33,080 nt of DNA from Nitrospirota bacterium (GTDB lineage Bacteria; Nitrospirota; Leptospirillia; Leptospirillales; Leptospirillaceae), in contig JAJYYA010000032.1 in assembly GCA_021801345.1 (NCBI GenBank), positions 1 through 33,080 on the forward strand. Direction: 5' to 3'. Under the pieces are notes generated by a model, which worked only from the letters and a program-made list of their open reading frames with translations, searched no databases and had not been told where the DNA came from. Shown piece after piece: positions 1 to 31,621 of the stretch. The position numbers were made by a program, and so were the translations under genes. How positions within the stretch are numbered: position 1 is the stretch's first letter; each line of letters opens with the position of its first letter.

Positions 1-782
1 CCTCGCCGCTTCCGACCTTCTATACCGAGGATCTGATCGAGGAGAAGATCGAAGACGGCTCCGCCGCCCGAGACTTTCTCGACATTCTTCACGGCCGGCT
101 CTATCCTCTCCTGTATGAAGTGTGGGAAAAAAATCGTCTTTCGCTCAGGGCTTTCGAAAAGGGCGAGAAAGAGATCGAAAATCTCTTTCATGTTTTTACG
201 GGGCTCTCCCTTCCGGTCTTTCGGGAGATCGACCCTCTGGCCTCGACCGCCCTCCGCTATGCGGGGATCCTGACCCAGCATCCCCGGTCGGCCAAAGGGC
301 TCGAGTCCATCCTTTCGGATGTCCTAGACGGTGCTCCCGTCAATATCGAGCAGTGCGTCGAGCGTCGCGTCGCTCTTCCCGACGACCAGCGCCTGATTTT
401 GGGCTCCGAACTCTCTTTGGGAGAGGAAACCGTTCTGGGCGACCGGGTCACCAACCGGACAAATCAGCTCCTGATACGGATCGGACCCGTCGACAATGCC
501 GCCTTCGAAGCCCTTCTTCCCGGCCGGGAAAACCTTCGGAAGGTCGCCTTCTGGACAGACTTCTATCTGCTCGATCCGCTCCTGGCGGAGATAGAAATTC
601 TTCTGTCGGACAGCGATCCCAGCCCGGTTCGGCTGGGGGCGGAGACCCGAAATCGTCTGGGGCTTGACGCCTGGCTCGAATGGGGCGCCTATACGAGGGA
701 AAAAAGCGTTTTTGTCAGGATCGACCCCGTATTGTCGGTCCAGGAGGAGATCACCATGAAAACCGCGGGAGTTTCGAGATGA
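1..782 (+). CDS. tssG: T6SS baseplate protein TssG (5' end outside window)
   Basis: This is the C-terminal part, about 259 residues, of TssG, a cytoplasmic T6SS baseplate wedge subunit that works with TssE, TssF and TssK. The reading frame is open from position 3; the family is usually about 330-350 residues, so some 80 residues lie upstream. Visible family features are the LPTFYTEDLI segment at the window edge, the DFLDILHGRL segment, the LSLPVFREI stretch, and a C-terminal half with the GDRVTNRTNQLLIRIGP and WTDFYLL segments. The TGA stop at 780-782 overlaps the ATG of the next gene (ATGA), implying translational coupling. An in-frame ATG at 756 follows a good AGGAGG but would give only eight residues, so I do not treat it as a gene. 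The family call rests on recognised sequence style and on context. Confidence 0.9.
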   Translation, partial: SPLPTFYTEDLIEEKIEDGSAARDFLDILHGRLYPLLYEVWEKNRLSLRAFEKGEKEIENLFHVFTGLSLPVFREIDPLASTALRYAGILTQHPRSAKGLESILSDVLDGAPVNIEQCVERRVALPDDQRLILGSELSLGEETVLGDRVTNRTNQLLIRIGPVDNAAFEALLPGRENLRKVAFWTDFYLLDPLLAEIEILLSDSDPSPVRLGAETRNRLGLDAWLEWGAYTREKSVFVRIDPVLSVQEEITMKTAGVSR

Positions 783-3451
783 TCATTGCCGATCTGAAAC
801 CGTTGTTTCGCCGCATGTCCCCCGTTCTCACGCGGGCGGTCGAGCAGGGAGCGGGGCTTTGTCTTTCCCGGACCCATTACGAAATCACGCCCGAGCACGT
901 TCTCATGTCTCTTCTGGACCATCCTGACTCGGACGTGATGAAGGTTCTCGTCGCGGAAGGAATCGAGCCGTCGGGTCTCCGGAGGGAGATGTCCAATGCC
1001 CTCGACGACCTCAAGAGTGGAAACGGTGGTCGGCCGGTCTTCTCCCCCCTCCTCATCGAGCTTCTCCAGGACGCGCACCTCATCGCCTCTCTCAACAGAA
1101 ACGAGTCCCACACCCGTTCCGGAGTCTTCCTTCAGGCCTTCATCAACCGCCTTTCGGCTTACTCTTCGGGGCGCCCCTCGAAGTCTCTGGAAAGGATCGG
1201 GAAGGAGCGCCTCAAGGAGCAGTTCGACACGCTCTCGTCGGGCTCGAGCGAAATCGTGGGGGGCGGGAAGGAGTCGGAAAAGGGCGAGTCCGAGGAGGGG
1301 ACGGCGATTGGCCGTTTTTGCGAAGACTTTACGGAGAAGGCCAGGAAGGGACGGATCGATCCGGTCTTCGGCCGCGATGCCGAGGTCCGGCAGATCATCG
1401 ACATCCTTTCTCGCCGGCGAAAGAACAATCCTATCTGCGTGGGCGATCCGGGGGTCGGCAAGACCGCTATCGTCGAAAGTCTGGCCCTTCGTATCGTCGA
1501 GGGGGACGTTCCCGAATCGATGTCCAAGGTTCGTCTTTTGGGTCTTGACATGGGGGCGCTCGAGGCCGGAGCCGGGGTCAAGGGCGAGTTCGAAAACCGC
1601 TTAAAGGGCGTGATAAACGAGATCAAGGCCTCGTCCGTGCCGGTCATCCTCTTTATCGACGAGGCCCACACGCTGATCGGGGCCGGCGGAGCCCAGGGAG
1701 GCGGGGACGCCGCAAACCTCCTGAAGCCGGCCTTGGCCCGGGGAGAGCTTCGGACCATTGCCGCCACGACCTGGGCGGAGTACAAAAAATACTTCGAAAA
1801 AGATGCGGCCCTGGCTCGAAGGTTCCAGCCCGTCAAGCTCGACGAGCCCTCCGTCGAGACGGCGATCCTCATCCTCCGGGGACTCAAGGCCCATTACGAG
1901 GCGGTCCATCACGTCACCATCCGGGACGACGCCCTTGTGGCGGCAGCCACTCTGTCCGACCGGTACCTCACCGGCCGGAAGCTTCCCGACAAGGCGGTGG
2001 ATCTTCTTGACACCAGTGCGGCCCGGATCCGGATCTCGCAGTCCTCAAAGCCCGAGAAGGTCGAAGGACTCGAGCGGCGCATTCAGGCTCTCGAGCGGGA
2101 AAAAGGCGGACTTGTGCGGGACCGGACCTTCGGCCACCTCGTGTCGGACGATCGGATCGAGGCGATCGAGGCGGAGCTCAAGGGGCTCGAAAAGGATCTT
2201 TCGAGCGTCCGGGAGCGTTGGGAAAAGGAAAAGACGGCCGTTTCGGAACTTTTGGCCCACCGGGAGGATCCTCGCAGAGAAGGCCCCGAGAGAGAGACCT
2301 GGATGAAGGAGCTTCGGGCCAAGGAGGCAGCGGTCCGGGCGATCCAGGGGGATCATCCCATGATCCATTTCGAGGTCGATCCGGAGACGGTCGCCCGGGT
2401 GGTCTCGAACTGGACCGGCATCCCTCTGGGCAAACTCATGAGGGAGCAGGCGCAAACGGTGATGAAGCTCCAGGAAACCCTGGGCGAGCGCGTACTGGGA
2501 CAGGAGCCGGCCCTGGCCCGGGTCGGGGAGATCATCCGCAACTCCCGGGCGGGTTTCAAGGCGCCCAACCAGCCCGTCGGGATCTTTCTCCTGGTCGGAC
2601 CTTCGGGGGTCGGCAAGACCGAGACGGCACTCTCCGTCGCAGATATTCTCTTCGGCGACGAAAAGGCCACGGTCAGCATCAACATGAGCGAGTTCCAGGA
2701 GAAGCACCAGGCGAGCCGACTGATCGGATCCCCTCCCGGGTACGTGGGGTACGGAGAAGGAGGGGTCCTGACGGAAGCAGTTCGTCAGAGGCCATACTCC
2801 GTCGTGCTCTTAGACGAGGTGGAAAAGGCCCATCCCGACATCCTGAACATGTTCTATCAGGTCTTCGACAAGGGGGTCCTCTCCGATGGGGAGGGCAAGG
2901 AGATCGATTTTTCCAACACGGTGATCTTCCTGACGAGCAACTTGGCCTCCGAGAAGCTCTCCGCCTACGCACTGGAGCATCCGGAGGCGGGGTACGAGGA
3001 GTTGGTGAACCTCATCCGGCCCGACCTGTCGCGGCACTTCAAGCCGGCCCTTCTCGCCCGAATGACGATCGTCCCCTATCTTCCCCTTCGAGGGGAGGCC
3101 CTGGGACGGATCGTCCGTCTCAAGACGAAAAGGCTTTCCCGCTCCTTCGTCGCGAACAACGGGGTGGAGATCGTCTTCGAGGACTCGCTCGTCGAGCATG
3201 TCGCGACCCAGTGCGAGACCTCCGAGGCCGGGGCCCGCAATATCGACTATCTTCTCCAGAGCCGGATCCTCCCTGAAATCTCCCGCGAACTGATCGGCCG
3301 TCTGGTCGAAGGGACCCTGGAAGGACCGGTCCGGGTCGGGATCGCCGCCGACGGAACCACCGTTATCGGAACGGGCGACGGCCAGGAGAGCGGGAATCAG
3401 AAGACCGGGGAAGGAAAGCCGGCCCGTAAGAACAAGAGGAAGAACCCATGA
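779..3451 (+). CDS. tssH: T6SS sheath-disassembly AAA+ ATPase ClpV/TssH
   Basis: This 890-residue Hsp100-type AAA+ unfoldase would extract and recycle the contracted TssBC sheath in the cytoplasm. I chose ATG 779 because it overlaps the tssG stop and begins MIIADLKPLFRRMSP, a typical start of the ClpV N-domain; the frame is open upstream but that part lies inside tssG. Domains in order are a double ClpN helical domain (about 1-150), the first AAA domain with Walker A GDPGVGKT near residue 222 and Walker B ILFIDEAH near 290, a coiled middle domain (about 400-520), the second AAA domain with Walker A GPSGVGKT near 606 and VVLLDEVEKAH, and a C-terminal D2-small domain. Both ATPase sites look intact. 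The last 25 residues are lysine-rich and probably disordered. The stop overlaps the vgrG start. Confidence 0.97.
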   Translation: MIIADLKPLFRRMSPVLTRAVEQGAGLCLSRTHYEITPEHVLMSLLDHPDSDVMKVLVAEGIEPSGLRREMSNALDDLKSGNGGRPVFSPLLIELLQDAHLIASLNRNESHTRSGVFLQAFINRLSAYSSGRPSKSLERIGKERLKEQFDTLSSGSSEIVGGGKESEKGESEEGTAIGRFCEDFTEKARKGRIDPVFGRDAEVRQIIDILSRRRKNNPICVGDPGVGKTAIVESLALRIVEGDVPESMSKVRLLGLDMGALEAGAGVKGEFENRLKGVINEIKASSVPVILFIDEAHTLIGAGGAQGGGDAANLLKPALARGELRTIAATTWAEYKKYFEKDAALARRFQPVKLDEPSVETAILILRGLKAHYEAVHHVTIRDDALVAAATLSDRYLTGRKLPDKAVDLLDTSAARIRISQSSKPEKVEGLERRIQALEREKGGLVRDRTFGHLVSDDRIEAIEAELKGLEKDLSSVRERWEKEKTAVSELLAHREDPRREGPERETWMKELRAKEAAVRAIQGDHPMIHFEVDPETVARVVSNWTGIPLGKLMREQAQTVMKLQETLGERVLGQEPALARVGEIIRNSRAGFKAPNQPVGIFLLVGPSGVGKTETALSVADILFGDEKATVSINMSEFQEKHQASRLIGSPPGYVGYGEGGVLTEAVRQRPYSVVLLDEVEKAHPDILNMFYQVFDKGVLSDGEGKEIDFSNTVIFLTSNLASEKLSAYALEHPEAGYEELVNLIRPDLSRHFKPALLARMTIVPYLPLRGEALGRIVRLKTKRLSRSFVANNGVEIVFEDSLVEHVATQCETSEAGARNIDYLLQSRILPEISRELIGRLVEGTLEGPVRVGIAADGTTVIGTGDGQESGNQKTGEGKPARKNKRKNP

Positions 3452-4941
3452 GCGCCACGAATGCCCCGCAAGCCGGTGATGTCACCTTCAGTTTGACTAT
3501 TTCCGGCCTTCCTCCGGAGGCGTTGCGTGTGGTGGCCTTTTCTGGCGAAGAGCGGCTGAACGGGGATTATGGCTTCCAAATGACGATTCTCTCCCGCCAG
3601 AACCAGCTGAGGCCGAAGGATCTCATCGGCCGCGACGCCTCATTTGTCCTCGAGTCGCGGAGGGAGGGCCTGCCCGTGAGAATGCCCTACCACGGGATGA
3701 TCGGAGAGTTCACGATTCACCGTCAGGTCTTCGAGGAGACGGAGTACAGGGCGACGCTCGTGCCCCGGATCGCGGCGCTGAATCTAGCGGAGCACTCGGA
3801 GATCTACACCCTCGAGAAGGATATTCCGGGGATTCTCGAGGAGGTTCTGAAGGCGGCGGGATTCACCTCCCAGGACTACCAGTTCAAGATCGTCGACGGC
3901 GGTCGGCCGCGTTCCTTTGTCTGCCAGTACCGGGAAACCCCCCGCCAGTTTATCGACCGATGGGCCGAGAGGGAGGGGATCGTCTACTACTTCGACCACT
4001 CGGGGGAAAAAGAGCGGGTGATCTTTTACGACCAGCCCCACCAGAAGCCCGCCTGGACAAAGACCCTGACCTACCGCCCTCCGGGAGAGCTCGACATCGG
4101 ATTTAAGGACGACTCCCTGATCGAGTTCCACGAAACGGCCCGTCCGGTACCCGGAAATGTGGTGGTCCAGGACTTCAACTATCGGAAGGCGAACCTTGAA
4201 ATCCGCGAGGAGGCGGTTCTCGACCCGCGCTCGGAAACCCTGCTCCAAGAATACGGGGGCAATCTCCGGACCAATGCCGACGCGAAGCGTCAGTCCAAGA
4301 TCCTCTCCGAGATCCTTCGGTGTCGGGCACAGACCTATTCCGGAACGAGCTCCGCAATGGAGGTCAGGTCGGGCACGACCATTCAGGTCCAGAGCCATTT
4401 CCGGGAGGAGATGAACGCTTCGTTCTATGTCGTGCGGGCCCGCTTCGAGGGATCGATGATGGAAGCCTCATCCCAATCAGAGTCGCCTCTGAAACAGGGG
4501 CGATTCACCACCTTTTTTGACGCGCTTCCCTCGGAGACTCCCTTTCGTCCCGAACGCAGGACCCTCTGGCCCCGGATCCCGGGCGTCGTCCAGGCGATCA
4601 TCGAGGCGGAAGGATCGGGAAAATTATCGGAGATCAACGAGTATGGGGAATACAAGGTTCGCTTCCCCTTTGCGCTCACGAAAAAGAAGACCCAGAAGGG
4701 ATCGGGGTGGGTTCGGCTCTCCACCCCTCTCGCGGGATCCGACAATGGGATCCACTTTCCCCTTCACAAGGATACCGAGGTTCTTGTGGCCTTTCTAGGC
4801 GGGGATCCGGATCAGCCGGTGATTGTGGGAGCCTTGCATAACTCGGAAGGCCGAAATCTTGTCTCGAACAAAAATCCGGAGATGAACATTATCCGGTCGG
4901 CCGGGGGGCATTTCATCATGTTCAACGACGGAAATCTCTGA
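3448..4941 (+). CDS. vgrG: Short VgrG/TssI spike protein, core only
   Basis: This 497-residue VgrG forms the trimeric puncturing spike on the Hcp tube. Residues about 10-370 are the gp27-like hub, with recognisable segments such as FIDRWAEREGIVYYF near 170-185. Residues about 375-470 are the gp5-like OB fold, with LWPRIPGVVQAII, GSGWVRLSTPLAG, TEVLVAFLGGDPDQPVIVGALHN. The protein stops at GGHFIMFNDGNL, just where most VgrGs enter the DUF2345-type beta-helical needle. It is therefore shorter than the usual 600 or more residues. The next gene, in the same frame 57 bases later, codes for a beta-rich repeat protein that could supply the missing needle. The start overlaps the clpV stop by four bases. 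No C-terminal effector extension is present. Confidence 0.95.
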   Translation: MSATNAPQAGDVTFSLTISGLPPEALRVVAFSGEERLNGDYGFQMTILSRQNQLRPKDLIGRDASFVLESRREGLPVRMPYHGMIGEFTIHRQVFEETEYRATLVPRIAALNLAEHSEIYTLEKDIPGILEEVLKAAGFTSQDYQFKIVDGGRPRSFVCQYRETPRQFIDRWAEREGIVYYFDHSGEKERVIFYDQPHQKPAWTKTLTYRPPGELDIGFKDDSLIEFHETARPVPGNVVVQDFNYRKANLEIREEAVLDPRSETLLQEYGGNLRTNADAKRQSKILSEILRCRAQTYSGTSSAMEVRSGTTIQVQSHFREEMNASFYVVRARFEGSMMEASSQSESPLKQGRFTTFFDALPSETPFRPERRTLWPRIPGVVQAIIEAEGSGKLSEINEYGEYKVRFPFALTKKKTQKGSGWVRLSTPLAGSDNGIHFPLHKDTEVLVAFLGGDPDQPVIVGALHNSEGRNLVSNKNPEMNIIRSAGGHFIMFNDGNL

Positions 4942-4998
4942 CCGAGTCACCCACAGTTCCCTTCTATGGGGGGGAATCCAGAACCATGAGGAGGCAGC

Positions 4999-5784
4999 AT
5001 GAGCGGCATCAACCCGAACGCAGACAATATCGAAACATCAAATACCAACGGGATCGTCGGTTTTTCCAGTTCCTATATCAGCCTTCAGGCGGTCGACGGA
5101 ATCTATCTGAACGGGATCGGGCCGGACAATACCGCCTCCAAGGATCTTCCCAAGGAGATCACGGACAATAAGGGGAATTTCTACATCTCGGGCCAAAACG
5201 GAGAGGCGGTTATCAAGTCCGTGGATACCGGCTCGATTCATTTGAACAGCCAAAACGGAAATGTCGATATCAATGTTCCAAGCGGATCCTTTAACACCAA
5301 TGTTCAGACTTTCAACGGTTTCGTCGTGGGGGACAGCGTCTCAAAAACCAATGGAAACATCACCTCCATTGTCGAACAGAGTTCCAATTCCATCGTCCTG
5401 GGAGCTTCGACTTCCACGGTTGTGGGTCTTTCAAACTCGGTTATTGGCGGAGACAGCAACTCCTTAGTATTAGGGGTAAATTCCCAGACGACAGCCGGCG
5501 AGGCACTTAATATCAACCTCGGGCTTCTTCAAGGAGTCGTCTTGGGCAATAATCTGTCGATGACTCTTGGACAATCCGAGCAAATTACTTTAGGTCCCTC
5601 TTTAAGTATTACAATAGGCCCCTCCACCTCTTTTTCAAACGCTGACTTCAAGTTAACGCCTGCGCAATTTAAGGAAATTGGAGCGGATATTAAAAATCAA
5701 GCAACCTCTATCAAAAGTTGTGCGACAGACATAAAAGATAGCGCCTCAGCAATATGGACCTCGGTCATGACCATTTTTCCATGA
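4999..5784 (+). CDS. Beta-rich repeat protein, probable detached VgrG needle
   Basis: I know no named family for this 261-residue protein. Residues about 60-100 (ISGQNGEAVIKSVDTGSIHL, then NGNVDINVPSG) resemble the alternating polar/hydrophobic strands of the VgrG DUF2345 region. Residues about 125-220 are a run of 7- to 9-residue units such as SNSIVLGAS, SNSVIGGDS, SNSLVLGVN, SEQITLGPS and LSITIGPS, the pattern of a trimeric beta-prism or phage spike. The last 45 residues look helical. It has its own AGGAGG site 5-6 bases before ATG 4999 and no signal peptide. It follows the truncated vgrG in the same frame, with two TGA codons (4939 and 4987) between them. I infer a separately encoded spike extension; an effector or a chaperone substrate is also possible. 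Its second half falls to about 40% GC. Confidence 0.7.
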   Translation: MSGINPNADNIETSNTNGIVGFSSSYISLQAVDGIYLNGIGPDNTASKDLPKEITDNKGNFYISGQNGEAVIKSVDTGSIHLNSQNGNVDINVPSGSFNTNVQTFNGFVVGDSVSKTNGNITSIVEQSSNSIVLGASTSTVVGLSNSVIGGDSNSLVLGVNSQTTAGEALNINLGLLQGVVLGNNLSMTLGQSEQITLGPSLSITIGPSTSFSNADFKLTPAQFKEIGADIKNQATSIKSCATDIKDSASAIWTSVMTIFP

Positions 5785-5833: not shown

Positions 5834-8716
5834 ATGAGAATCATTAAGCCTATTCTCTTGGGCTTTCTCTCAAAGCCTTATAAAAGGCATGGGAATCAAC
5901 TGGCTTTGACGGGGCTATGGGCATTTCTCTTTTCCAACCCCGATGTTCCGCTTACCGAGCAGGAAATGTGGAAGACAGTGGCCCCTCTCTTTCCTGAGAA
6001 CACTCCTTGGGACGAGGGCGTGCCCAAGGAGAGGGGTGAGGTGCTCCTTGTGGGAGATTGCCATGCCATGAAGGGGATCCCTGTCCCCAAACGGCAAGTG
6101 AGCCTTCGAATCGGTCCGGTAGCCAAATCTCTCGATGTTTATGGCAACAGGGTCTGGAATCGGGACCGTGGGTTCCTTCGCAAGAGTGATCCGCAGCCAT
6201 TTCTCTCCATGCCGGTCGATTTTGCCCATGCATTCGGAGGTCCGGGATATGGTCAGAATCCAATCGGAATGGGGTGTGAAGATTCTGCCAATGGAGATCT
6301 CAAACCACTTCCCAATATCGAAGACCCTACCAATCCCATTTTGTCACCAGAGGACCGGCCGGCACCCGCAGGGTTCGGTCCCCTTGGAATGATTTGGACT
6401 CACCGATACAGTAAGATCGGAAAGTATCAACCTGGTGAACTCGGAAAAGATCCTCCGCCACTCCCGGCCAACACAGACTGGACTTTTTTCAACCAGGCGC
6501 TACCCGACCAATGGCTTCCAGGGATGTGGGGCGGAGGAGAAGACTTCTCACTCTCCGGATTCCATCCTGACCTTGAAACTCAGACAGGCCATGTTCCCCG
6601 GGTTCGAGTTCGAAGCTTTGTTACCTTCCGGCAGGGACATACGCTCGAACCCGTCCTGTCCCCGGAAACGCTCTGGCTCTTTCCATGCCTCTCGATGGGG
6701 ATAATGATCCACAGGGGAACGCTTCCTATCGAATCCGACGACGCTTCCGAGATCGCCTCCATTCTTCTCGGAGTCGAAGATCCTGGAGAGAATCGCTCCA
6801 TGGATCACTATCTCGCCGTAAAATCCCGTCGGGAAGAGAAAAACTCCAAGGATATTTCCCGCTTCCAAGAAACCCCGCTCCTCCCCAAGCGACTCGAGAA
6901 CGATCCCAGAGCAAACCTTTTGGATCCGACCTATCTGTTGGGAAACTCTCTTGAAAGTCCATTCGAGACGAGAAAGATACTCGCACAGAAAATGGACGAG
7001 GTTCAGGAAAAAGTTGATTCTCTCCGAAGCTCCCTCTCCAAGATTCCTCCCCCTCCCGAAGGATCTTCCTCCGACATCACAAAGACTTTTCAGGACCAAT
7101 TGGAGAAAGAAACCCAGAGCTTCAAAAAAAGTAAAGAACAGATCGCGACCTCTCCTCCAACATCACAGAGTATCTTGAAAAACATCCAGCAAGAAGGCGA
7201 GAGGCTGAAAGATGTTGCCAATGATGTCGATGCATTGAAGCAGAATATGGCCCACAAGATCGAAGCGACTATCAACAGATTTCCTTCGGAGGGACTGAAG
7301 AACCTGGGAAAAACCCGGGAGGAGATTCTCTCGAGGGTCGCGAATCTTAAAGGCGGCTCCCAAAGTCCCTCCGAAATTCCCCCTCCCCCTAAAGATCAGT
7401 CTTCTTTTGAGAATCTGTTTTCAAAAGATCGGATCGTTGCCCTCTTGCAGTCCGAGCGAGACCGAATCGGAGCATCCTTCCCGGATGGAATACAACTCTC
7501 CCCCGAAGCATCGGAGAAGCTTTTAAAGCTAGACGCCTCCATCGAATCGCTTAAATCCAACGTTAACAACATGGAAAACAGAGAGCCTCCGTCCAATATG
7601 AAGGGTCTGATTCGGATATTGCACTACTTTTCCCCACCGGAGCCCAATTCTTCCATTGCCACGGATCTTAGAAGGTCTGTCGAGGAAGAGCTTGTTCGCA
7701 CCCGACATTTCCGGAACCGTAATCTGAGGGGCGCGGACCTTTCAGGACTTGACCTATCGAGAGCCGACTTTTCTGATGCTGACGTGATTGGAGTTAACTT
7801 CACAGGATCTAACCTGTCGGGGACTCAATTCACCGGAGCCTGGGCAACCTATGCCAACTTCTCCCAATGCCTCCTCGACCGGTCAGACTTTTCCGGAGCC
7901 AACCTCGGATGCGCCGATCTGTCCACCGCCAGAGGTATAGGCACCTCATTCAGAGACGCCTTCCTTTCGGGAGCACTCCTGATCGATACGACCTTTTCCG
8001 AGGGAGATTTTTCGGGGGCAGAGTTCTTTCATACCGTCTTCAGACGCTCAAAGATTCACAAAAGCATTTTTGCCCACGTGAAGTTTCTCCGAGCGGGAGA
8101 TATTCCCTTCCCGCCTCAGGGAACACCAGATGAAAGTCCTGATACCAAAACACGATTTTTGATCGAAGAATTAGATTTTTCAGGCTCAGACTTTACAAAA
8201 GTTCTTTTCATGAACGTCGACTTCATCCGATCAAATCTGTCGGAATGCCGCTTGGATCAGGCCATCTTTCTGGAGTGCACAGGTCCGGGAACCCACTTTG
8301 ACAAAGCCAGCCTCATAAAATCCACCTTCCCAAAATCCACCGACTTCAAAGAATCCTCCTTTCAGAAAGCCGATCTTTCAAGGGCCAATTTCCGGGGAGT
8401 CAACCTTGAGAAGAGCGACTTTCGCGGAGCGACGCTGGTCGGGATGGATGGTTCAGATGGCACGTTCCGAGGAGCCCTCCTCTCCGGAACCCGAGCCACC
8501 AAGTCTCGGTTCATGAAAGCCGACCTCCGAGACGTTGACGCCCGGGGAGGAGACTTCAGAGAAGCCCTTTTTCTCAAGTCCGATCTGCGAGGGGCCATCT
8601 TCTCCCATGCCTCTCTCTACAAGGCGGGATTTATCGGCGCCCAGATCGATGCCACGACCTTCTGGGATCATGCCCTGATCGGCAAGACAACCCTCGTCCA
8701 GGAAAAGACTCCATGA
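5834..8716 (+). CDS. DUF2169-pentapeptide repeat fusion, T6SS adaptor-like
   Basis: This 960-residue protein has three parts. Residues about 1-340 match DUF2169: VGDCHAMKGIPVPKR, then SLDVYGNRVWNRD, DFAHAFGGPGYGQNPIGMG, LKPLPNIEDP, PAPAGFGPLGMIW, and DWTFFNQALPDQW. Residues about 375-600 are charged and probably coiled, with proline-rich linkers (IPPPPEGS, EIPPPPKDQ). Residues about 615-950 are pentapeptide repeats, A(D/N)LSG type, for example LRGADLSGLDLSRADF, expected to form a right-handed beta-helix. DUF2169 proteins elsewhere (for example the Agrobacterium Tde2 locus) act as adaptors that load PAAR/DUF4150-linked cargo on VgrG; a similar role here is inference. No catalytic motif is evident. 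The stop overlaps the next start (ATGA). The gene is poorer in GC than the T6SS core genes. Confidence 0.85.
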   Translation: MRIIKPILLGFLSKPYKRHGNQLALTGLWAFLFSNPDVPLTEQEMWKTVAPLFPENTPWDEGVPKERGEVLLVGDCHAMKGIPVPKRQVSLRIGPVAKSLDVYGNRVWNRDRGFLRKSDPQPFLSMPVDFAHAFGGPGYGQNPIGMGCEDSANGDLKPLPNIEDPTNPILSPEDRPAPAGFGPLGMIWTHRYSKIGKYQPGELGKDPPPLPANTDWTFFNQALPDQWLPGMWGGGEDFSLSGFHPDLETQTGHVPRVRVRSFVTFRQGHTLEPVLSPETLWLFPCLSMGIMIHRGTLPIESDDASEIASILLGVEDPGENRSMDHYLAVKSRREEKNSKDISRFQETPLLPKRLENDPRANLLDPTYLLGNSLESPFETRKILAQKMDEVQEKVDSLRSSLSKIPPPPEGSSSDITKTFQDQLEKETQSFKKSKEQIATSPPTSQSILKNIQQEGERLKDVANDVDALKQNMAHKIEATINRFPSEGLKNLGKTREEILSRVANLKGGSQSPSEIPPPPKDQSSFENLFSKDRIVALLQSERDRIGASFPDGIQLSPEASEKLLKLDASIESLKSNVNNMENREPPSNMKGLIRILHYFSPPEPNSSIATDLRRSVEEELVRTRHFRNRNLRGADLSGLDLSRADFSDADVIGVNFTGSNLSGTQFTGAWATYANFSQCLLDRSDFSGANLGCADLSTARGIGTSFRDAFLSGALLIDTTFSEGDFSGAEFFHTVFRRSKIHKSIFAHVKFLRAGDIPFPPQGTPDESPDTKTRFLIEELDFSGSDFTKVLFMNVDFIRSNLSECRLDQAIFLECTGPGTHFDKASLIKSTFPKSTDFKESSFQKADLSRANFRGVNLEKSDFRGATLVGMDGSDGTFRGALLSGTRATKSRFMKADLRDVDARGGDFREALFLKSDLRGAIFSHASLYKAGFIGAQIDATTFWDHALIGKTTLVQEKTP

Positions 8717-9794: not shown

Positions 9795-10454
9795 ATGAGT
9801 CCTGAACTTCTTTCCGCTCCTCCCGAGACGCAAACTTTTCTCCGGATGGGTCTTGTGACGCGCTTTTCCCAGAATAGTGTTGAGGTTGCGCTAGACGGGG
9901 AAATCCACACGGCCATCCGCACCTCCGGTTGCGTGGTGGATCCCCGGCCAGGGGATCTGGTTGTTCTTTTCGTTCCGGAGGGCCATCTTCCCGTCGTCCT
10001 CGCGATCGTCGATGCGGGGAAAGTGGCTGAATCCTCTCCCAGAACCATGCGGTTTCCCGAGGGCCTCGTCATGAATGTTTCGGGTCATCCCTTGACCCTG
10101 AACGCCCAGGAGGGTCTCGAGATCGACTCCCCGGAAACACTTATCCGGAGCGGACGACTTTCGGGTCAGTTTTCTGAGTGCGAGGTCGTCTCCGGCACAT
10201 TGACGCTAACAGGGGGAGTTCTCTCACTTATCGGAGAGACGGTCAGACACGTCGCCAAGTCTCTTGAACGGGTGGCCCAATGGCTTCACGACCGGGCCCA
10301 TGGGTCGATCCGGGAGATCGAGACCCTCGACCGGCATACCTCCGGAGAGACGACGATCGAGTCGGACTCCCTCGTCTCGATCCAGTCCAAAACCACGCTT
10401 GTCGCAAGCGAGGAGCTCGTGAAGATCGACTCCGACCAGATCCATCTCGGATAG
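9795..10454 (+). CDS. DUF3540 protein with OB-like fold, T6SS cassette
   Basis: This 219-residue protein fits the DUF3540 family often found beside DUF2169 and DUF4150 genes in T6SS loci. Residues about 15-80 (GLVTRFSQNSVEVALDGEIH, then GCVVDPRPGDLVVLFVPEG, LPVVLAIVDAG) look like a small OB or baseplate-hub fold comparable to the gp5 part of VgrG. Residues about 95-170 contain strand patterns (LTLNAQEGLEIDSPETLI, GTLTLTGGVLSLIG) leading into a helix (VRHVAKSLERVAQWLHDRAH). The C-terminus (TTIESDSLVSIQSKTTLV, VKIDSDQIHLG) is again beta-helical, like a DUF2345 needle. A strong AGGAGG site lies just before ATG 9795. I infer a spike accessory or VgrG-like connector to the DUF4150 tip; its exact molecular function is unknown. 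Confidence 0.8.
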   Translation: MSPELLSAPPETQTFLRMGLVTRFSQNSVEVALDGEIHTAIRTSGCVVDPRPGDLVVLFVPEGHLPVVLAIVDAGKVAESSPRTMRFPEGLVMNVSGHPLTLNAQEGLEIDSPETLIRSGRLSGQFSECEVVSGTLTLTGGVLSLIGETVRHVAKSLERVAQWLHDRAHGSIREIETLDRHTSGETTIESDSLVSIQSKTTLVASEELVKIDSDQIHLG

Positions 10455-10472: not shown

Positions 10473-10868
10473 ATGTTTGCCAACTGTCAGATGGGGGGGA
10501 TGTCGCTGGGGTTTCCCGACGTCTGCAACACGCCCGTATTGGGGGTGCCCGTTCCGATACCCTACCCCAATATCTCGACCAACCCGATGGGGATTCCGCC
10601 GGTTCCCAACATCCTCTTCGGGGGGGCTCCCGCCCAGAATCTCCTGACCGAGGTTCCCCTCACCCAGGGGGACGATGCGGGGCTCGAGGGGGGAATCCTC
10701 TGCGGAATGGACATGGGACCCGCCCGATGCATCGACGGCTCCTTCACGGTCCTCGTGGGAGGGGCTCCGGCCACGCGCCTCACCTCTGTGACCCTCCAGA
10801 ACATGATCAACGCACCGGGAGTCTGCCTGGTTCCCGCGCAGCTTACCGTTCTTATGTTAGCCCCCTAG
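10473..10868 (+). CDS. DUF4150 PAAR-like spike tip protein
   Basis: This 131-residue protein matches DUF4150, a PAAR-like family that caps VgrG and sharpens the T6SS spike. Recognisable segments are the N-terminal MFANCQMGGMSLGFPDVCNT, the PVPIPYPNIS motif, the LTQGDDAGLEGG segment (commonly STGDEAG..GG) and the closing S/T-rich and NAPG stretches. The protein consists of the tip domain alone: no toxin domain is fused at either end. If it carries cargo, this must bind non-covalently, perhaps through the DUF2169 fusion protein upstream. It has an AGGAG site before ATG 10473 and lies 18 bases after the DUF3540 gene and 25 bases before tssJ, so it is part of the operon. Confidence 0.9.
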   Translation: MFANCQMGGMSLGFPDVCNTPVLGVPVPIPYPNISTNPMGIPPVPNILFGGAPAQNLLTEVPLTQGDDAGLEGGILCGMDMGPARCIDGSFTVLVGGAPATRLTSVTLQNMINAPGVCLVPAQLTVLMLAP

Positions 10869-19531: not shown

Positions 19532-19822
19532 ATGCCCCCTCGTAAACAGGGAAGGGGAGGGAGGATCGATCTCTGACCTTGGGTCGCAAGGTGCGGCAAG
19601 TGTCATGGGGGCCGATTCGCGGTTTTTCATTGCACACAGACCCTGACGCATGCGGGAAGATTCGCCGAAAGGCCTGTCTGTCTCGTTCGAATACACTTAT
19701 TGTCCTGGGTTCTGGGGCCATTCCTGGCCGCGATCTCCGGGAAAGAGAGACACGCTGTTGATTTTCGCATCAATTTTATCGGGTCTATTGGGCATCCTCC
19801 CTCCGTGCGCGGAGGAAAAACC
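19532..19822 (+). other. Intergenic region between T6SS operon and TPS genes
   Basis: This 291-base stretch separates the last T6SS-operon gene from tpsB. I see no convincing coding sequence; the open frame running through its second half joins tpsB but lacks a start that is better than ATG 19823. No clear rho-independent terminator is visible. A short inverted repeat, TTGAT at 19758-19762 and ATCAA at 19769-19773, lies about 50 bases before tpsB and could be an operator half-pair, but it is too short to be sure. A tpsB promoter may be here, but no good -35/-10 pair stands out. Confidence 0.5.
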
Positions 19823-21958
19823 ATGAAGACGCGATTTCTACTGACGACAGGTTTTTCTCTGACACTCCTGGTTCTGTGCCTGTCCGCTCCGACGGCTGTC
19901 CGGGCGGGGGGATGCGTCTCGACGGGCTCGCTGGGGGATGTTCTGATGAACTGCCCGCCTCCTGCCGTCAAAGCCCCGAAGCCCGCTGCGAAAAAGGCGC
20001 CCTCCGACCATTTCAGAAAAAACTGGATTCTCCATATCCGCGTTCCGCAGGGAGACTGGCATTCCGCCGTCCGTTCGGGCGTGGCCGGCTGGGTGGCTCA
20101 AAGGCTCTTTCCTCATCCGACGGCGGAGGAGCAGGCGCTCCTGAACAGGGAGATCCAGAATCTGACCCGGATGGGATTTCCTGTCGAGGCGAAAAAACAG
20201 TCGGATCTGATCGCCAGGGTCAAGGTGACCGCCGAAACATTGAACCGCATTGCCGCCCGTCTTAAAAAGGCCGTTGAGGCAAAACATCTCGCCTACCATG
20301 TCTCCCGGGTGATGGTCACGGGGGGAACGGGAAAGGAAAATCGGTTTGTCGCTGCTCAAATTCCGGTTCCGAAGTCCGGGATCGTCGCGTCGGACCAGAT
20401 GTCCCAAAAGCTCTACGACATCTCCCAGGTCCCGGGATTCTCCCGGGCGGACGGAATGATGGTCCCGGCGATCGCCACCCGGAACCTGACCTTTTCCCTG
20501 CCGCATATCCTGACCGTCCACAGTGACAAAAAAGATTGGGCGCGGGATATCCGAAGGCAGATGGTCCTTCTCGTCGCCGATCTTCTGATCGACACGAAGA
20601 ACCCGCTGGGGAAAAAGATTGCCGAGACGCTTGCCCGGAGGCTGTCGCGGGTCCCCTGGCCGAATCTTGTGATCCGAAAGGAGAAGAAGGACTCCTACCA
20701 CGTCGAAATCTCGCCGCTCCTGCTGAACACACTCAAGAACGTTCTCCTCCAGGCTGCGGCCTTGGGCAGGGTTCCGGAGACGGTTCCCCTGCTGGATCGC
20801 GCGGGCCAGTTGTCGACCGGTAACCTTTTTGCCCCCCTGCCCGCCGCATCGGAGTACGACGACTTTCTTGTCCGCATCACGCCGGTTCCGACTTTTTCAG
20901 GATCGCAGATCGAGATCGACAATTATGGATACGCCCCGACCGGCGCGCTCGTCTTGAATGCCATCGGAAATGTCAACAATGCCCTGGTCGCGGGGGGGCT
21001 TTTCACAGTCACCGCCTCGACGACCTTCGGAGGCATGAATTCGGGGATGGTGAGCGCCTCCCTTCCGATCGGGCTTTATCTCCGGACCGGGGTGGACTTC
21101 AGCGCGATGACCTACACCCTCGGGATGGGCATTTCTCCTTGGGGCCACGGAACGGATGTCGCCGCTCTCACAGCCTTGGGGGTGAGCGGGAGCAACGACT
21201 CCGGGGACCTGTGGATCGACCAGAACCTTGTCCACACCGAGGACAAAACGCTTGTCCTCAAGGAGACGCTCTTTCTCAAGCAGTTCAAGGACAACTACTC
21301 TCCGACGGTCCAGAACGACCGGAACATCGTGGGGGGGGCCTTGGACCTGTCGGGCTCGCGGTCCATCGGGAGGCTCACCGCCTCGTTCGACCTCTCCGGG
21401 ACCGAATACAGTCTCTCCCAGGGAAGTGCCTCGAGTCCCCTGAATCCCTACTATTCCGATACGCCGGGCCTGCAGAGCTATCTCTCCGGCAACGGACAGA
21501 TCGGCTTTGCCTTCACTCCGAAATATTCCCTGGTTCTGGGGACGATAGACCAGCAATATATCGGGGGAGGGACCCTCGACCCGATGCTTCAGGCCACCCT
21601 TGGAGGGGTCTCGAACGTGATGGCGCTCCCCACCGCCGCCCTCTTCGGAAACAATCTCTACGCCGGGACGCTGACCTTCACCCGTACGGACGACATCGAT
21701 GCCGGGGGCTTCTCCACTTCAGGCTTCTTCGACATAGGCGAGGTCTCGGGGGTTAGCACCAACTATCTCGCCATGGGGCCCGGAGTCGAGGAGGCCTTCA
21801 ACGCCCCCCACTTTTTTGCCAAGATCGACGTGGCGGCTCCGGTGGGGGCCCTTCCGATTGAGGGTTTGGGAAATACGATCACGGCGCTCGCCGGAGGGAA
21901 CATCGCCCAGGGGGGGATCCCGATCCAGCTGTGGCTGTCGGTCGGGGTGAGGGATTAG
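19823..21958 (+). CDS. TpsB-like outer-membrane transporter (ShlB/FhaC type)
   Basis: This 711-residue protein is probably the outer-membrane partner of the TPS pair, exporting the TpsA product of the next gene. ATG 19823 follows GGAGG at 19811-19815 and opens a signal peptide (MKTRFLLTTGFSLTLLVLCL, cleavage after about residue 28). An unusual Lys/Pro-rich and helical region follows (about 35-180). A POTRA_2/ShlB-like part may start near 195 (KLYDISQVPGFSRADGMMVP), similar to the LndlPG...l.PG signature. From about 363 (IEIDNYGYAPTGALVLNAI) the sequence reads as a ShlB-type barrel: alternating strands, Gly/Ser turns, and a C-terminal aromatic-poor last strand. It is much longer than the usual 550-600 residues and divergent, so family membership rests partly on its place beside tpsA. 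Confidence 0.75.
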   Translation: MKTRFLLTTGFSLTLLVLCLSAPTAVRAGGCVSTGSLGDVLMNCPPPAVKAPKPAAKKAPSDHFRKNWILHIRVPQGDWHSAVRSGVAGWVAQRLFPHPTAEEQALLNREIQNLTRMGFPVEAKKQSDLIARVKVTAETLNRIAARLKKAVEAKHLAYHVSRVMVTGGTGKENRFVAAQIPVPKSGIVASDQMSQKLYDISQVPGFSRADGMMVPAIATRNLTFSLPHILTVHSDKKDWARDIRRQMVLLVADLLIDTKNPLGKKIAETLARRLSRVPWPNLVIRKEKKDSYHVEISPLLLNTLKNVLLQAAALGRVPETVPLLDRAGQLSTGNLFAPLPAASEYDDFLVRITPVPTFSGSQIEIDNYGYAPTGALVLNAIGNVNNALVAGGLFTVTASTTFGGMNSGMVSASLPIGLYLRTGVDFSAMTYTLGMGISPWGHGTDVAALTALGVSGSNDSGDLWIDQNLVHTEDKTLVLKETLFLKQFKDNYSPTVQNDRNIVGGALDLSGSRSIGRLTASFDLSGTEYSLSQGSASSPLNPYYSDTPGLQSYLSGNGQIGFAFTPKYSLVLGTIDQQYIGGGTLDPMLQATLGGVSNVMALPTAALFGNNLYAGTLTFTRTDDIDAGGFSTSGFFDIGEVSGVSTNYLAMGPGVEEAFNAPHFFAKIDVAAPVGALPIEGLGNTITALAGGNIAQGGIPIQLWLSVGVRD

Positions 21959-22208: not shown

Positions 22209-22389
22209 AGCTGGCGTGGCACGGTAAGGAATACGGATCCACTAATGGAGAGTCATTGGTGGAAAGAAACTCTTGACTCCAGTCAATGGAGCTCTCGTCC
22301 GGGACCGGATTCGAACGGAACGCTTTTTCCAATATTCGGGACTCTCCGCAAGGGGATTTCCCCCACAAGTCACCACAGGAGTCTTTCCC

Positions 22390-25300
22390 ATGAAAAGACA
22401 ATCTGCCATTTTCCGCAAGCCCCCCACCCTCATCCGAAAGGTCCTGTCCGGGATTCTTTCGGTGGCGATCGTGGTCGGGCCCTTTCCGATGATGGGGGGA
22501 AAGAGTGCCTCCGCCCTTCCCCGCGGCGGGTCGGTGACCAGGGGCGGCGCGACTCTTTCCTACAGCACCGCCAGGCTCCTGATCAGACAGTCGACCTCCC
22601 GGGCAAGCTTTTCCTGGGGAAGCTACAACGTCAAGAGCGGGCAGAGCGTCGTCTACCGGACGCCGGGTTCGTCGTCGGTCTCCATGAACTTCATCGGCGG
22701 GACTACCCCCGCAATGATCATGGGATCGATCAAGTCCAACGGGATTCTCGAGTTCATGGACTCAAACGGGCTGATCTTCGGACGTGGGAGCGTCGTCTCG
22801 GCGGCCGGCGTCATGGCCTTCGGATCGAAAACTCCTTGGGGGACTCCCACCGGGGCCGTGAATAATGCCGGCACGATCACGGCAAGTTCCGGCCAGACTG
22901 TGGCTCTCGTCGGTACGCAGGTCTCCAATTCCGGGACGATCATCGCTCCCGGAGGGACGGTCGTCCTGGGCGCGGGGGCGACCGTGACTCCGATTACGTC
23001 GACTCGGACCTCCTCCTTTTCGGTCGCGACGACGGGCGGGGGAACGGTCACGAACTCCGGAGTCATCTCGGCGGAGACGGAAGGAGGGCAAACCGGCAAT
23101 ATCGTGCTCAAGAGCGGCATGGAGTCCGGGACGACGACTCTCACCGGGACCTCCGTGCTCGACGCCTCAGCTCCCAATGGCGGAAACGGGGGGGCAATCG
23201 AAACCTCCGGAAGCCGGGTGAACGTGGCGACAGGGGCCCTGGTCACGACCGAGGCTCCTTACGGCACCACCGGCACCTGGCTCATGGATCCCGTCTCCTT
23301 CTATATCGGGATGAACATGACGGGAACGGCCAGCAATACGGCCGGGAACCACTTGACCTATGAAGACATTTCCGGAACGACCCTTGCCTCAGCTCTCGGG
23401 ACAAGCAATGTTGTGATCGACTCGACACAGGGGGTTAATGGCACTCTCGGGAATATCTATGTCAACGACGCGATCATATGGAACAGTGCCAACAAACTGA
23501 CCCTGAATGCCGTCAACAATATTGAGGTCAATAAGGCCATTACAAACTCCGGCACCGGGGGGATCACCCTCTATGCCGACAACATGAGCCTGGTGGGAAC
23601 CACAACGAACACAACGGGGGGGGGTGTCCCGTCCGGGAATGGGGTGGTCGCGGTCAATACGAACGGGTCGCTTTCGACCAAGGGAGCTCTTCACATCTAT
23701 ACCAACCCGACGAACTACTGTACAAGCGGGGCCGAGACCGCCAATCCGGGCACGGCGGGAGGAAGCTACTCTAACCTCGGCACCGGAGGGACACTTCAGG
23801 CCTTCGAACTGGTGTCGACTTCCGGCGACCTCACATGGATTGACGGAAACCAGAACTCGATAACACTTGGGAACAACTACGCCTTAAACGCCAATCTCTC
23901 GCCTACCAGCTGGACCCCCTTGGGAAATTCGACGATCTCTTACAGCGGGATCCTTAACGGAAACGGCCATCTCGTAAGCGGCTATACGATCGGAACCTCT
24001 TCGGTAGCCGATGTCGGCTTCATCGGAGTTCTCAGTTCGAGTGGAATCGTCGAGAACCTGGGTGTTTCGGGGACGATTACTGCGAGTAATGCCTCCTATG
24101 TGGGCGGGATTGTGGGATGTAATGCCGGTCAGGTCGTCTCATCCTACAACAGTGGATCCGTCTCCGGGGGAACCGCACCCTCGGGAACGGCGGGAGCCAA
24201 CGGGACCAGTACATCAACTACCGGGGGGACTGGGGGCGCCGGCGGAAATGGGGGTGATATCGGAGGCGTCGCGGGAGCGAACTCCGGCACAGTCGAATAT
24301 TCCTACAATACGGGTTCCGTGACCGGCGCGTCCGGCGGAGGGGGAGGAGTCGGCGGGACGGGTTATGGATCCGGATCGGGGGGCGCTGGGGGAAGCGGCG
24401 GCGCCGGCGGAAATACCGGGGGCGTCGTGGGAACGAACTCCGGCACAGTCGAATATTCCTACAATACGGGTTCCGTGACCGGCGCGTCCGGTGGGGCAGG
24501 GGGATCCGGCGGTGCCGGCGGTTCGAGCGGATCGGGAGGGGCAGGAGGCTCCGGAGGGGCAGGAGGAAATAGCGGCGGGGTCGCGGGGGCAAACTCCGGC
24601 ACCGTCGCATACTCCTACGGCTATGGGAGCGTTACCGCTGGATCCCCCGGGGCGGGAGGCTCCGGCGGCACCGGATCGTCGACTGGTTCCACCGGAGCAT
24701 CCGGAGGGGCGGGTGGGACCGGTGGGGTCGTGGGGTCGAATACCGCCACGACGGTTACCTCGACCTACTATAATTCCTCGGCATTTACAGGGACTGGATA
24801 TGGAACAAGCACAAAGAACATCACGGTCGGGAGCATTTCGTCAAGCAATTTCGGAAGCCCCAGCTCCTACTCATGGACCTTTAACACCTGGTCTGGTTCG
24901 GGCTTCTCCTCTGCCTCAACCCCTTGGTATCTCGCCTCAACCGGTATGACAATGCCTGTGCTGGTCTCGGATATGTCAACCGACAGCATCGCAGCCAATA
25001 ACGCTTCCGCTGAATACTCGGGCTCGGCCTATTCGGGAACGCCGGGCGTCACCCAGAGCAATGCCCCCACCAGCGGAACGATCGGGTACTCCTATTCCAC
25101 TGCGAACCCTACCAATGCCGGAACCTACACGATAATGCCGACGATCAGCAGTGTTCCCGCCCCTCTCACTCAATCAGGGCTCGGCTCATTTTCTTTCGTC
25201 CTCGGATCTCTCACGATCGACAAGGCGAACCTGACCCTGTCGGGAACAGAGGTGTACAACGGAACGACGACAATGGCGGGGAGTGCGCTGACGGCGACAG

Positions 25301-29872: not shown

Positions 29873-31621
29873 GTAACTATTCAGGGGGTACCCCCCTCCA
29901 GATGATCAGTTTTTGACCACTGGACACCTATTTCTTGATGTGGTAGGGTGGTGGCATGGAGACGACACCACACCCCAGTACCGTCCCGAACGGTCCAGAA
30001 GTCTCTTCGGGCCCAGCGATCTCCTCCTTCAGGATCTTCACCCGGGAGGAACTTGAAGCGATCGCGCTCACAACACCGCTTGTCCTTGTCGACCTCGCTC
30101 TGGCCCAGGCGGCCCAGATCCAGGATCTTCTGGCGCGCGTGAGCGCCCTGGAAGAGCAACTGGCAAAAAACAGCCGCAACTCAAGCAAGCCTCCCTCCAC
30201 AGATGGCTATGCCAAACCGGCCCCCAAGAGTCTTCGGACGTCTTCGGGGAAGACGCCGGGAGGACAGACGGGGCATCCCGGACATACCCTCTCTCCGGTC
30301 GAGACGCCGGACAGGATTCTCGTCCATTTGCCGGAGAGCTGCCCCTGCGGGTATTCCGGAGCGTTTGAGGAGGATCCTGACTTGCCTGTCGACACGCGAC
30401 AGGTCCTGGATCTTCCTCCCCAGACACTGATCGCGACCGAGCATCGCTGTCCCGTCCGGCGCTGTCCCAAGTGCCGGAAGAGGATCCAGGCTCCCTTTCC
30501 GGCGGAAGCGGCCGTTCCCGTCCAATACGGCCCGAACTTCAAATCGTTTTTGGCTTATACCCACTCCGTCCAGCTCCTCCCTTTCGGGCGCATCTCCCAA
30601 ATGTGCCAGGATCTTTTCGGAGCTCCGGTCAGCCCCGCCACCATCCAGAACGCCCTGATCGACATGGACAAGGCGCTCGACGGGTTTTCGGAGGTTCTCG
30701 AACAGGAGATCCTCAAAGCCCCTCTCGCCCATGCGGACGAGACCGGAATCCGGGTTGCGTCCTCTCTCTCCTGGCTCCATGTCCTCTCCACGGCCGAACT
30801 GACCTGGTACGGGGTCCATGAAAAACGGGGAGGGGCCGCCCTCTCCGACTTCGACCTCCTCCCCCGCTTCCGGGGACGCCTCATCCACGACTGCTGGTCG
30901 CCCTACTTTGCCTTCGACATTCCCCATGGACTCTGCAACGCCCATCTCTGTCGGGAACTGGTCTTCGTGGACGAGGTTCTGGAGCAAGACTGGGCCCGGC
31001 CCCTCCGCCTCTTTCTCGTGGAGGTCCTTGACGCGTCCTATGCCCATCGGGCCGCCGGGACCGTCTTCTCCCCCGAAGCGCTCGCCTCCTTGAGCGCCCG
31101 CTACGACAAACTGATCGACAACGGGTGGAAGGAAAACCCCCTGGCCCCCGAGACCCCGAAGCGCCGGGGGAGGCCCAAAAAGACCAAGGCCCAGAACCTT
31201 CTCTCCCGACTTCAAACCCACAAGGAGAGCGTCCTTGCCTTCATGTACGACCTCTCGGTGCCGTTCACGAACAACCAGGCCGAGAGGGATTTGCGCATGC
31301 TCAAGGTCAAGCAGAAGATCTCCGGATCGTTCCGCACCATGGAAGGAGCCCGGCGGTTCGCAAGGATCCGTTCCTATATCTCGACCGCCACGAAGAACGG
31401 GAAGCACCTCCTCGACGCTCTCACCCAAGCCTTCCTCGGAAATCCCTTCCTCCCCTCACGGTCTCCCTGATCCCTTCGGGCTCGGGATGACCGGACTCTC
31501 AACCTTTCCAGAAGACGTCCGGGCGAAACTACTCCACTTCGAATTCAGACTCCAGAAGATCTTTTTCCCACCAACGGGACCGCTGCGTCTTTGAACGGTC
31601 ACCCTACCCCTGAATAGATAC
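29873..31621 (+). mobile_element. IS66-type insertion sequence, 1749 bp, with 8-bp target duplication
   Basis: The ends are imperfect inverted repeats: GTAACTATTCAGGGG at 29873-29887 and its complement CCCCTGAATAGATAC at 31607-31621 (14 of 15 match; ends begin GTA, as in IS66 elements). The flanks carry an 8-bp direct repeat TAAAGGTC at 29865-29872 and 31622-31629, the usual IS66 duplication size. It has one long ORF, as in the ISBst12-like IS66 branch, without the small accessory orfs of classic IS66. A perfect 12-bp palindrome, GGGGGTACCCCC, lies at 29884-29895 in the left end only. The intact ORF and exact duplication suggest a recent insertion. Confidence 0.95.
29956..31470 (+). CDS. IS66-family (ISBst12-like) DDE transposase
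   Basis: This 504-residue transposase would cut and join the ends of the element. Residues about 45-70 form a leucine-zipper-like helix ending in LAKNSRNSSKPPSTDGY, an IS66 hallmark. A zinc-binding region follows, with cysteines in CPCGYSG and CPVRRCPKCRKR. The catalytic triad is visible as D261 (HADETGIRV), D312 (IHDCWSPYF) and E443 (NNQAERDLRM). The basic KRRGRPKKTKAQ stretch near 395 is probably a DNA-binding insert, and the C-terminus (RSYISTATKNGKHLLDAL) is typical. No frameshift or premature stop is seen, so the protein is likely functional. The start at ATG 29956 is preceded only by a weak GGTGG site. Confidence 0.95.
   Translation: METTPHPSTVPNGPEVSSGPAISSFRIFTREELEAIALTTPLVLVDLALAQAAQIQDLLARVSALEEQLAKNSRNSSKPPSTDGYAKPAPKSLRTSSGKTPGGQTGHPGHTLSPVETPDRILVHLPESCPCGYSGAFEEDPDLPVDTRQVLDLPPQTLIATEHRCPVRRCPKCRKRIQAPFPAEAAVPVQYGPNFKSFLAYTHSVQLLPFGRISQMCQDLFGAPVSPATIQNALIDMDKALDGFSEVLEQEILKAPLAHADETGIRVASSLSWLHVLSTAELTWYGVHEKRGGAALSDFDLLPRFRGRLIHDCWSPYFAFDIPHGLCNAHLCRELVFVDEVLEQDWARPLRLFLVEVLDASYAHRAAGTVFSPEALASLSARYDKLIDNGWKENPLAPETPKRRGRPKKTKAQNLLSRLQTHKESVLAFMYDLSVPFTNNQAERDLRMLKVKQKISGSFRTMEGARRFARIRSYISTATKNGKHLLDALTQAFLGNPFLPSRSP

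Follow-up and report, generated by a model that had tools for sequence, protein, structure and literature searches.

We analysed a stretch of 33,080 nucleotides from a Nitrospirota bacterium of the family Leptospirillaceae (assembly GCA_021801345.1, contig JAJYYA010000032.1, positions 1 to 33,080 of the forward strand; hereafter the window), which carries the genes of a type VI secretion system (T6SS). VgrG, the spike protein of such systems, is usually regarded as one chain linking hub and needle. Here, the spike very probably has a VgrG divided at the border between these parts, with the needle made by the next gene as a separate protein, which we call SPK. The first gene encodes a hub that ends before the needle, the second a protein with the octapeptide repeats of the phage T4 gp5C needle, and the two genes stay together in every family genome that has this hub.

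The VgrG hub and the gene behind it

The two genes and the parts of their products are as follows.

3448..4941, forward strand: VgrG hub (gp27-like and OB domains), ending at the neck before the needle, delimited with Pfam/NCBIfam matches and the 4mtk alignment
4942..4998, forward strand: intergenic gap, with an in-frame TGA at 4987-4989 and AGGAGG at 4989-4994
4999..5784, forward strand: SPK, putative separate needle protein, 261 residues
4999..5328, forward strand: N-terminal module of SPK (residues 1-110, boundary approximate), a candidate for docking on the hub
5329..5640, forward strand: SPK octad shaft, residues 111-214, gp5C-like (135-214 scored, 111-134 assigned by eye)
5659..5781, forward strand: C-terminal end of SPK, with a helix-like stretch at residues 221-259 followed by the last residues, a candidate for the tip that faces PAAR (low confidence)

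The product of the first open reading frame (ORF; 497 residues) matched Phage_GPD, the gp27-like hub domain, at E 4.1e-55 and Phage_base_V (PF04717), the gp5-like OB domain, at E 1.5e-11. The latter match ends at residue 464, the protein stops 33 residues further on, and no Gp5_trimer_C, Gp5_C or DUF2345 was found in it up to E 1. The β-needle that usual VgrG/TssI members carry in the same chain is thus absent. Moreover, TIGR03361 was matched over model positions 2-449 of 513, and residues 13-454 of the 643 in P. aeruginosa VgrG1 (PDB 4mtk) align to hub residues 21-468. Two long VgrGs of the same phylum (loci L024 and L025) contain both Gp5_trimer_C and Gp5_C in one chain. The sequence-only reading had placed the end of this VgrG where its relatives enter a DUF2345 needle; the position stood, with no needle domain behind the OB domain, and the name of the needle did not. 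This hub is the sole Phage_GPD match in the window's genome (73 contigs, 96.7% complete).

The two ORFs lie 57 nt apart in a common frame, with TGA codons at 4939 and 4987, and the second has its own AGGAGG and an ATG at 4999, all as described in that reading. An SPK family profile of 10 rows matched solved chains of the gp5 central spike and chimeras of gp5, with E values from 1.6e-5 to 4.8e-4; up to E 10 it matched 23 sequences, and these chains and chimeras held ranks 1 to 14. In T4, the octads have Gly at position a, Asn/Asp at b and Val at g (PMC3004832). The window's SPK contains 10 Gly pairs at a lag of 8, compared with 2.7 in shuffles, and none of 1000 shuffles reached 10. In residues 135-214, Gly was observed at position a in 10 of 10 consecutive octads, a result that none of 300 shuffles gave when scored at this single stretch length. 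The Gly-8 excess was reached by at most 1 of 1000 shuffles in eight of the 10 family rows and by 15 of 1000 in L021, and Asn/Asp at position b ranged from 0/8 to 10/13 among the relatives. After the octads comes a helix-like stretch, suggested by a low-confidence model and the sequence pattern, and then a short end of mostly (I/M/V)x(I/L/V)F-like residues.

The sole PHROG for the window's SPK was a weak match to the 'baseplate hub subunit and tail lysozyme' family (E 0.078). The Pfam scan gave no OB domain match for SPK, and no Gp5_C or Gp5_trimer_C match above the Pfam cut-off for the window's protein. DUF2345 (PF10106) was not matched by the window's SPK up to E 1, and it is absent among the 25 families listed, of the 45 matched, for the 10 SPK relatives. 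We therefore dropped this label, the detectable likeness being to T4 gp5C.

Conservation was assessed in 21 genomes of the family from five genera, with cut-offs of E 1e-10 for the VgrG profile and E 1e-4 for the SPK profile. The VgrG profile, which finds one VgrG per family genome, matched 10 of the 21; the SPK profile matched the same 10, and SPK was the next ORF after VgrG in all 10 loci, four of which have a partly readable hub (L020, L023 and L031 begin inside it, and L022 has unread bases). The arrangement covers four genera, including the one-contig genome G015. SPK homologues always found far from vgrG, the pattern that the sequence-only reading had named as speaking against itself, were thus not what we observed. 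Hub and SPK share a frame in four of the 10 loci (the window, L019, L020 and L022), which is about chance level, so the common frame to which that reading drew attention has no meaning. The gap between the genes was 36 to 84 nt across the five loci measured, and a purine-rich, ribosome-binding-like run preceded the SPK start in 7/7 genes inspected. Outside the family, none of the 177 genomes sampled from the phylum matched the SPK profile at E 1e-4; at E 0.01, the single SPK sequence gave additional matches to octads within the long fused VgrGs of genomes G052 and G069. No tblastn match to SPK was found in plasmids and phages, and a contig search with the single sequence gave 60 pattern matches, none confirmed. 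Collectively, the conserved linkage, the one VgrG per family genome and the single Phage_GPD match in the window's genome favour a two-part spike assembled from separate chains, one of the two possibilities raised from the sequence.

Neighbouring genes and variation of the needle

The pair is embedded in the following genes of the window, in a cluster resembling both Class III Tvp systems and Burkholderia T6SS-5.

680..3451, forward strand: ClpV/TssH ATPase, directly upstream of VgrG
5834..8716, forward strand: TvpAB-like protein, DUF2169 and pentapeptide repeats (Pfam; naming after PMC13373197)
8713..9786, forward strand: TvpB-like pentapeptide-repeat protein (Pfam)
9795..10454, forward strand: TvpC-like protein, DUF3540 (Pfam)
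10473..10868, forward strand: PAAR-like (DUF4150/PIPY) tip protein (PF13665, Tox-PAAR-like)

The whole order reads TssG (partial), ClpV, VgrG, SPK, DUF2169 plus pentapeptide, pentapeptide, DUF3540, PAAR-like, TssJ, TssK, TssL, TssM and TssA. A 752-residue ORF with no Pfam match at E 0.001 (19700-21958) lies between TssA and an adhesin-like 1923-residue ORF with YDG domains (22273-28044), which is downstream of the T6SS genes, and an IS66-type transposase (29956-31470) is close to the window end.

In the mechanism we propose, the first gene would provide a trimeric hub (gp27-like plus OB domain), and the second a trimeric β-needle that would sit on this hub with no peptide bond, like matured gp5C with gp5* in T4. 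The DUF2169, pentapeptide and DUF3540 (Tvp) set would place the PAAR-like tip on the end of SPK that points away from the hub. TvpC (DUF3540) has been described as a predicted OB plus β-prism mimic of VgrG that holds PAAR until VgrG replaces it (PMC13373197); if the Tvp set loads the tip on SPK, it would be SPK, not VgrG, that replaces this placeholder. A single-chain structure prediction of the TvpC-like protein (6 rows) had a mean predicted local distance difference test (pLDDT) of 47.5. By analogy with T4 (gp27-gp5*-gp5C)3 after cleavage, a spike of (hub)3 and (needle)3 joined without covalent bonds is the most likely form, and we infer SPK trimerisation, its docking on the hub, its secretion and its takeover from TvpC.

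The needle varies along its length. Between genomes G003 and G011, identity was 92% for ClpV, 91% for VgrG, 92% for TssK and 87% for the SPK head, and it fell to 36% in the SPK shaft and 13% in the last 45 residues of the whole-length alignment (40% for the shaft and 28% for the tip, here the last 50 residues, when the parts were aligned alone). Low values continued through TvpAB (45-56%), TvpB (47%) and TvpC (39%), and then rose to 82% for the PAAR-like protein and 83% for TssJ. When locus L017 (G003) is set against L018 and L135, the low identity begins in the middle of SPK and extends over TvpAB, TvpB and TvpC in clusters that are otherwise mostly 82-92% identical, which suggests a cassette exchange. 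In G003, two SPK genes stand in tandem after one hub (L017 8749-10714), and these needles are 87% identical in their last 45 residues, 58% in the head and 33% in the shaft.

Rank correlations were calculated over 28 genome pairs, which are non-independent and include some partial hubs and one partial TvpAB. The SPK head tracks VgrG (0.77; 0.43-0.54 with the Tvp proteins), and the shaft and tip do not (0.29 and 0.12). The automatic cut between head and shaft defaulted to residue 112 in the window's SPK and in that of G014, for which it is late. These values fit a head constrained to suit the hub and a shaft and tip that may be exchanged. Covariation of the tip with the Tvp set (0.45 for TvpAB, 0.32 for TvpC and 0.14 for TvpB) was too weak to claim. 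A more tentative idea, to which we give somewhat less than even chances, is that the needle can be exchanged like a cartridge: SPK3 and PAAR would be assembled beforehand, the Tvp chaperones would pass this unit on from TvpC, and it would dock non-covalently on a constant hub trimer. It draws on the tandem needles of G003, with their common tip and different heads and shafts, and on the comparison of G003 with G011, where the head is kept and the shaft, tip and whole Tvp block differ. Docking of this kind, with no covalent link, would allow one T6SS to have several needles and to recombine them.

Fused and split relatives

DUF3540 was matched in 20 of 250 genomes sampled from the order to which genome G198 belongs, and 18 regions from 16 of these 20 were examined (among the remaining four, G198 was covered as L033, and G288, G255 and G408 were left out). 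A hub was matched in 16 of the 18 regions (not in L096 and L097), and 15 of these 16 have a single open frame from hub to tail (790-1308 residues stop to stop, upstream included); in L102, the hub is spread over two frames. The hub of L093 is downstream of DUF3540 and so may not belong to the same operon. L096 encodes, between its pentapeptide genes and DUF3540, a 571-residue protein with an OB match only (PF04717; 3098-4813, reverse strand), which resembles another unusual VgrG-like arrangement.

The search for fused versions proposed in the sequence-only reading yielded one in L092. The tail of this 848-residue VgrG scores 47.6 bits over SPK profile positions 119-263; the best of 1000 residue shuffles reached 9.1 bits, the best of 1000 octad-block shuffles 26.0 and the best of another 500 block shuffles 33.8. 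Its SPK-like stretch is followed by a helix-like end of the kind seen in SPK.

Other split VgrGs were found in the family of G198. Loci L033, L034, L117, L118, L119 and L120 encode a hub of 531-564 residues, then a protein of 390-481 residues and then the Tvp genes, and a seventh locus, L121, lost its hub side to the contig end. L033, which is G198 itself, and L034 are Burkholderiaceae records, and the Burkholderiaceae loci are split at the same position as the window's VgrG. Their second protein showed no detectable homology to SPK (hhalign probability 0.6%), so that homology of the two was not upheld, and its profile found no PDB prism; it is therefore called a needle by position and repeat-like sequence only. 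When this profile was scored against 20 fused tails, only L130 (14.5 vs 9.2 bits) and L091 (8.3 vs 7.2) were above controls. In L120 (2543-8725), a second needle-like gene stands after the first DUF2169/pentapeptide-like set, as if needle and Tvp genes had been duplicated.

In a hub-core tree of 26 rows, the split hubs formed one clade of 12 (support 99/97). With eight rows added, fused Caballeronia/Burkholderia hubs joined at the node of this clade, the split label needed two changes, and one origin was seen in 8% of bootstrap trees, so the trees do not establish a single origin. Recruitment was uneven, split rows coming through similarity to the window or L033 and fused rows mainly through DUF3540; two of the eight added rows carry no split/fused label because their contigs end, and both trees leave out L020, L022, L023 and L031 (partial or gapped hubs) as well as L100, L102, L103 and L104. 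The fused VgrGs fall outside in the midpoint-rooted trees, and this, together with fused L092, indicates that a long VgrG probably split, once or twice. The ancient split raised in the sequence-only reading is thus favoured, and the data support taking it and the two-part spike as fitting together, not as alternatives.

Alternative explanations, known systems and meaning

Several observations weigh against a needle encoded apart from its hub. The window's SPK passes no Pfam, PHROG or NCBIfam threshold, and one of the 10 family members touches Gp5_trimer_C, at E 0.013. Asn/Asp occupies position b in only 2 of the 10 scored window octads, and L016 lacks a significant Gly-8 excess (310 of 1000 shuffles), yet its best octad stretch is 7/9. 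Single-chain AlphaFold2 models of SPK (8 rows) had a mean pLDDT of 48.1 and a predicted template modelling score (pTM) of 0.29. When the SPK profile was run against 20 tails of fused VgrGs, L092 alone was far above controls; L129 reached 17.3 against 7.9 and L133 9.7 against 7.4, whereas the 23.3 bits of L024 and the 8.1 bits of L025 were reached by 9 and 169 of 500 octad-block shuffles, so these two resemble SPK only as octad repeats. In addition, G014 bears, besides its normal pair, an SPK-like fragment of 70 residues (E 4.6e-8; L026 2310-2522, reverse strand, contig G014:C247), with no hub or Tvp match in the 12 kb inspected. This orphan could be a stored or decayed needle.

Genes directly behind vgrG often encode cargo, and SPK could be such a VgrG-associated cargo or accessory β-repeat protein, in which case the PAAR-like protein, or some other part, would cap the hub directly. 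The strong variation of shaft and tip between strains (13% in the last 45 residues, with hubs at 91%) and the orphan of G014 speak for this; however, the gp5C-type octads and profile match, the similar stretch within a fused VgrG chain, and a hub that has no needle domain of its own and is the only Phage_GPD match in its genome make it unlikely. Less probable again is that SPK is a placeholder or assembly factor like TvpC, and no part of the fired spike. Its model would be TvpC as a predicted trimeric OB plus prism mimic of VgrG, replaced during assembly (PMC13373197), but a DUF3540 gene is already present downstream, SPK has no OB match, and the hub would have no needle if SPK were taken away. 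Hardly any weight falls on decay, in which stops interrupt one long VgrG, possibly rescued by read-through. The window's ORFs, in frame with two TGA codons between them, would suit it, but we rejected it because the frames differ in six of the 10 loci; the varying gap lengths, the ribosome-binding-like run before SPK and the spread over four genera, one-contig genome included, also argue against it.

A VgrG divided at the hub/needle border can be compared with several known systems. In the Burkholderia savannae pMSMB0266 cluster, clpV-vgrG-tagAB-tagB-DUF3540-PAAR-like-tssJ-tssK-tssL are in common with the window and tssG precedes clpV, but vgrG is a single 2985-nt gene and there is no separate SPK. 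P2-like phages, like the window, encode hub and spike separately (gpD/gpV), although their OB domain goes with the spike and that of the window with the hub. Fused plasmid VgrGs (L128-L130) end in LIQLG, and DUF3540 ends in (I/V)HLG in 5/5 family rows and in IDLG in L033; compared by eye, these endings fit a shared PAAR-facing end. Published loci of polymorphic toxins also include a VgrG that lacks its C-terminal part beside another gene, as in the window, but the passages concerned describe C-terminal regions after DUF2345, not a separate needle gene. The Burkholderia T6SS-5 order (clpV, vgrG, tagAB, tagB, tagC, PAAR-like, tssJ, K, L, M) is that of the window from clpV to tssM, with SPK as an extra gene (PMC6335564). 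Class III VgrGs have longer prisms, and the Class III Tvp T6SS of Serratia marcescens (VgrG1, TvpAB, TvpB, TvpC and Paar1) shares with the window the gene set of DUF2169 with pentapeptide repeats, pentapeptide repeats, DUF3540 and DUF4150 and, as proposed for the window, a long prism. Its VgrG1 has a predicted prism of 186 Å within a single chain, whereas the window has hub and prism-like protein in separate genes, and so lacks the long prism in one VgrG chain (PMC13373197).

In T4, the octapeptide β-helix of gp5C stays in the (gp27-gp5*-gp5C)3 spike as a separate chain, as proposed for SPK; in T4 the chains arise when a single precursor is cleaved by proteolysis, in the window they come from two genes, and, unlike the window, T4 has gp27 as a separate protein and lysozyme on gp5* (PMC3004832). 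Split vgrG loci with separate N- and C-terminal VgrG domains, as in the window, were reported for some Acinetobacter strains in one sentence that gives no boundary, conservation or Tvp context (PMC6838775). A hub/needle split of this kind was not found described in searches of open-licence PMC papers: the words 'split', 'truncated' and 'shorter VgrG' are absent from the main text of PMC13373197, and the relevant passages of PMC11883445 do not describe one. As far as these sources go, a split vgrG had been reported once, in Acinetobacter.

A conserved split would show that the covalent link between hub and needle is dispensable for firing, and the pair would be a natural two-component system for studying needle docking and TvpC exchange. 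The two-gene arrangement, kept across the family, may allow duplication or exchange of the needle without its base, which would offer a route for needles to diversify independently of the baseplate-facing hub.

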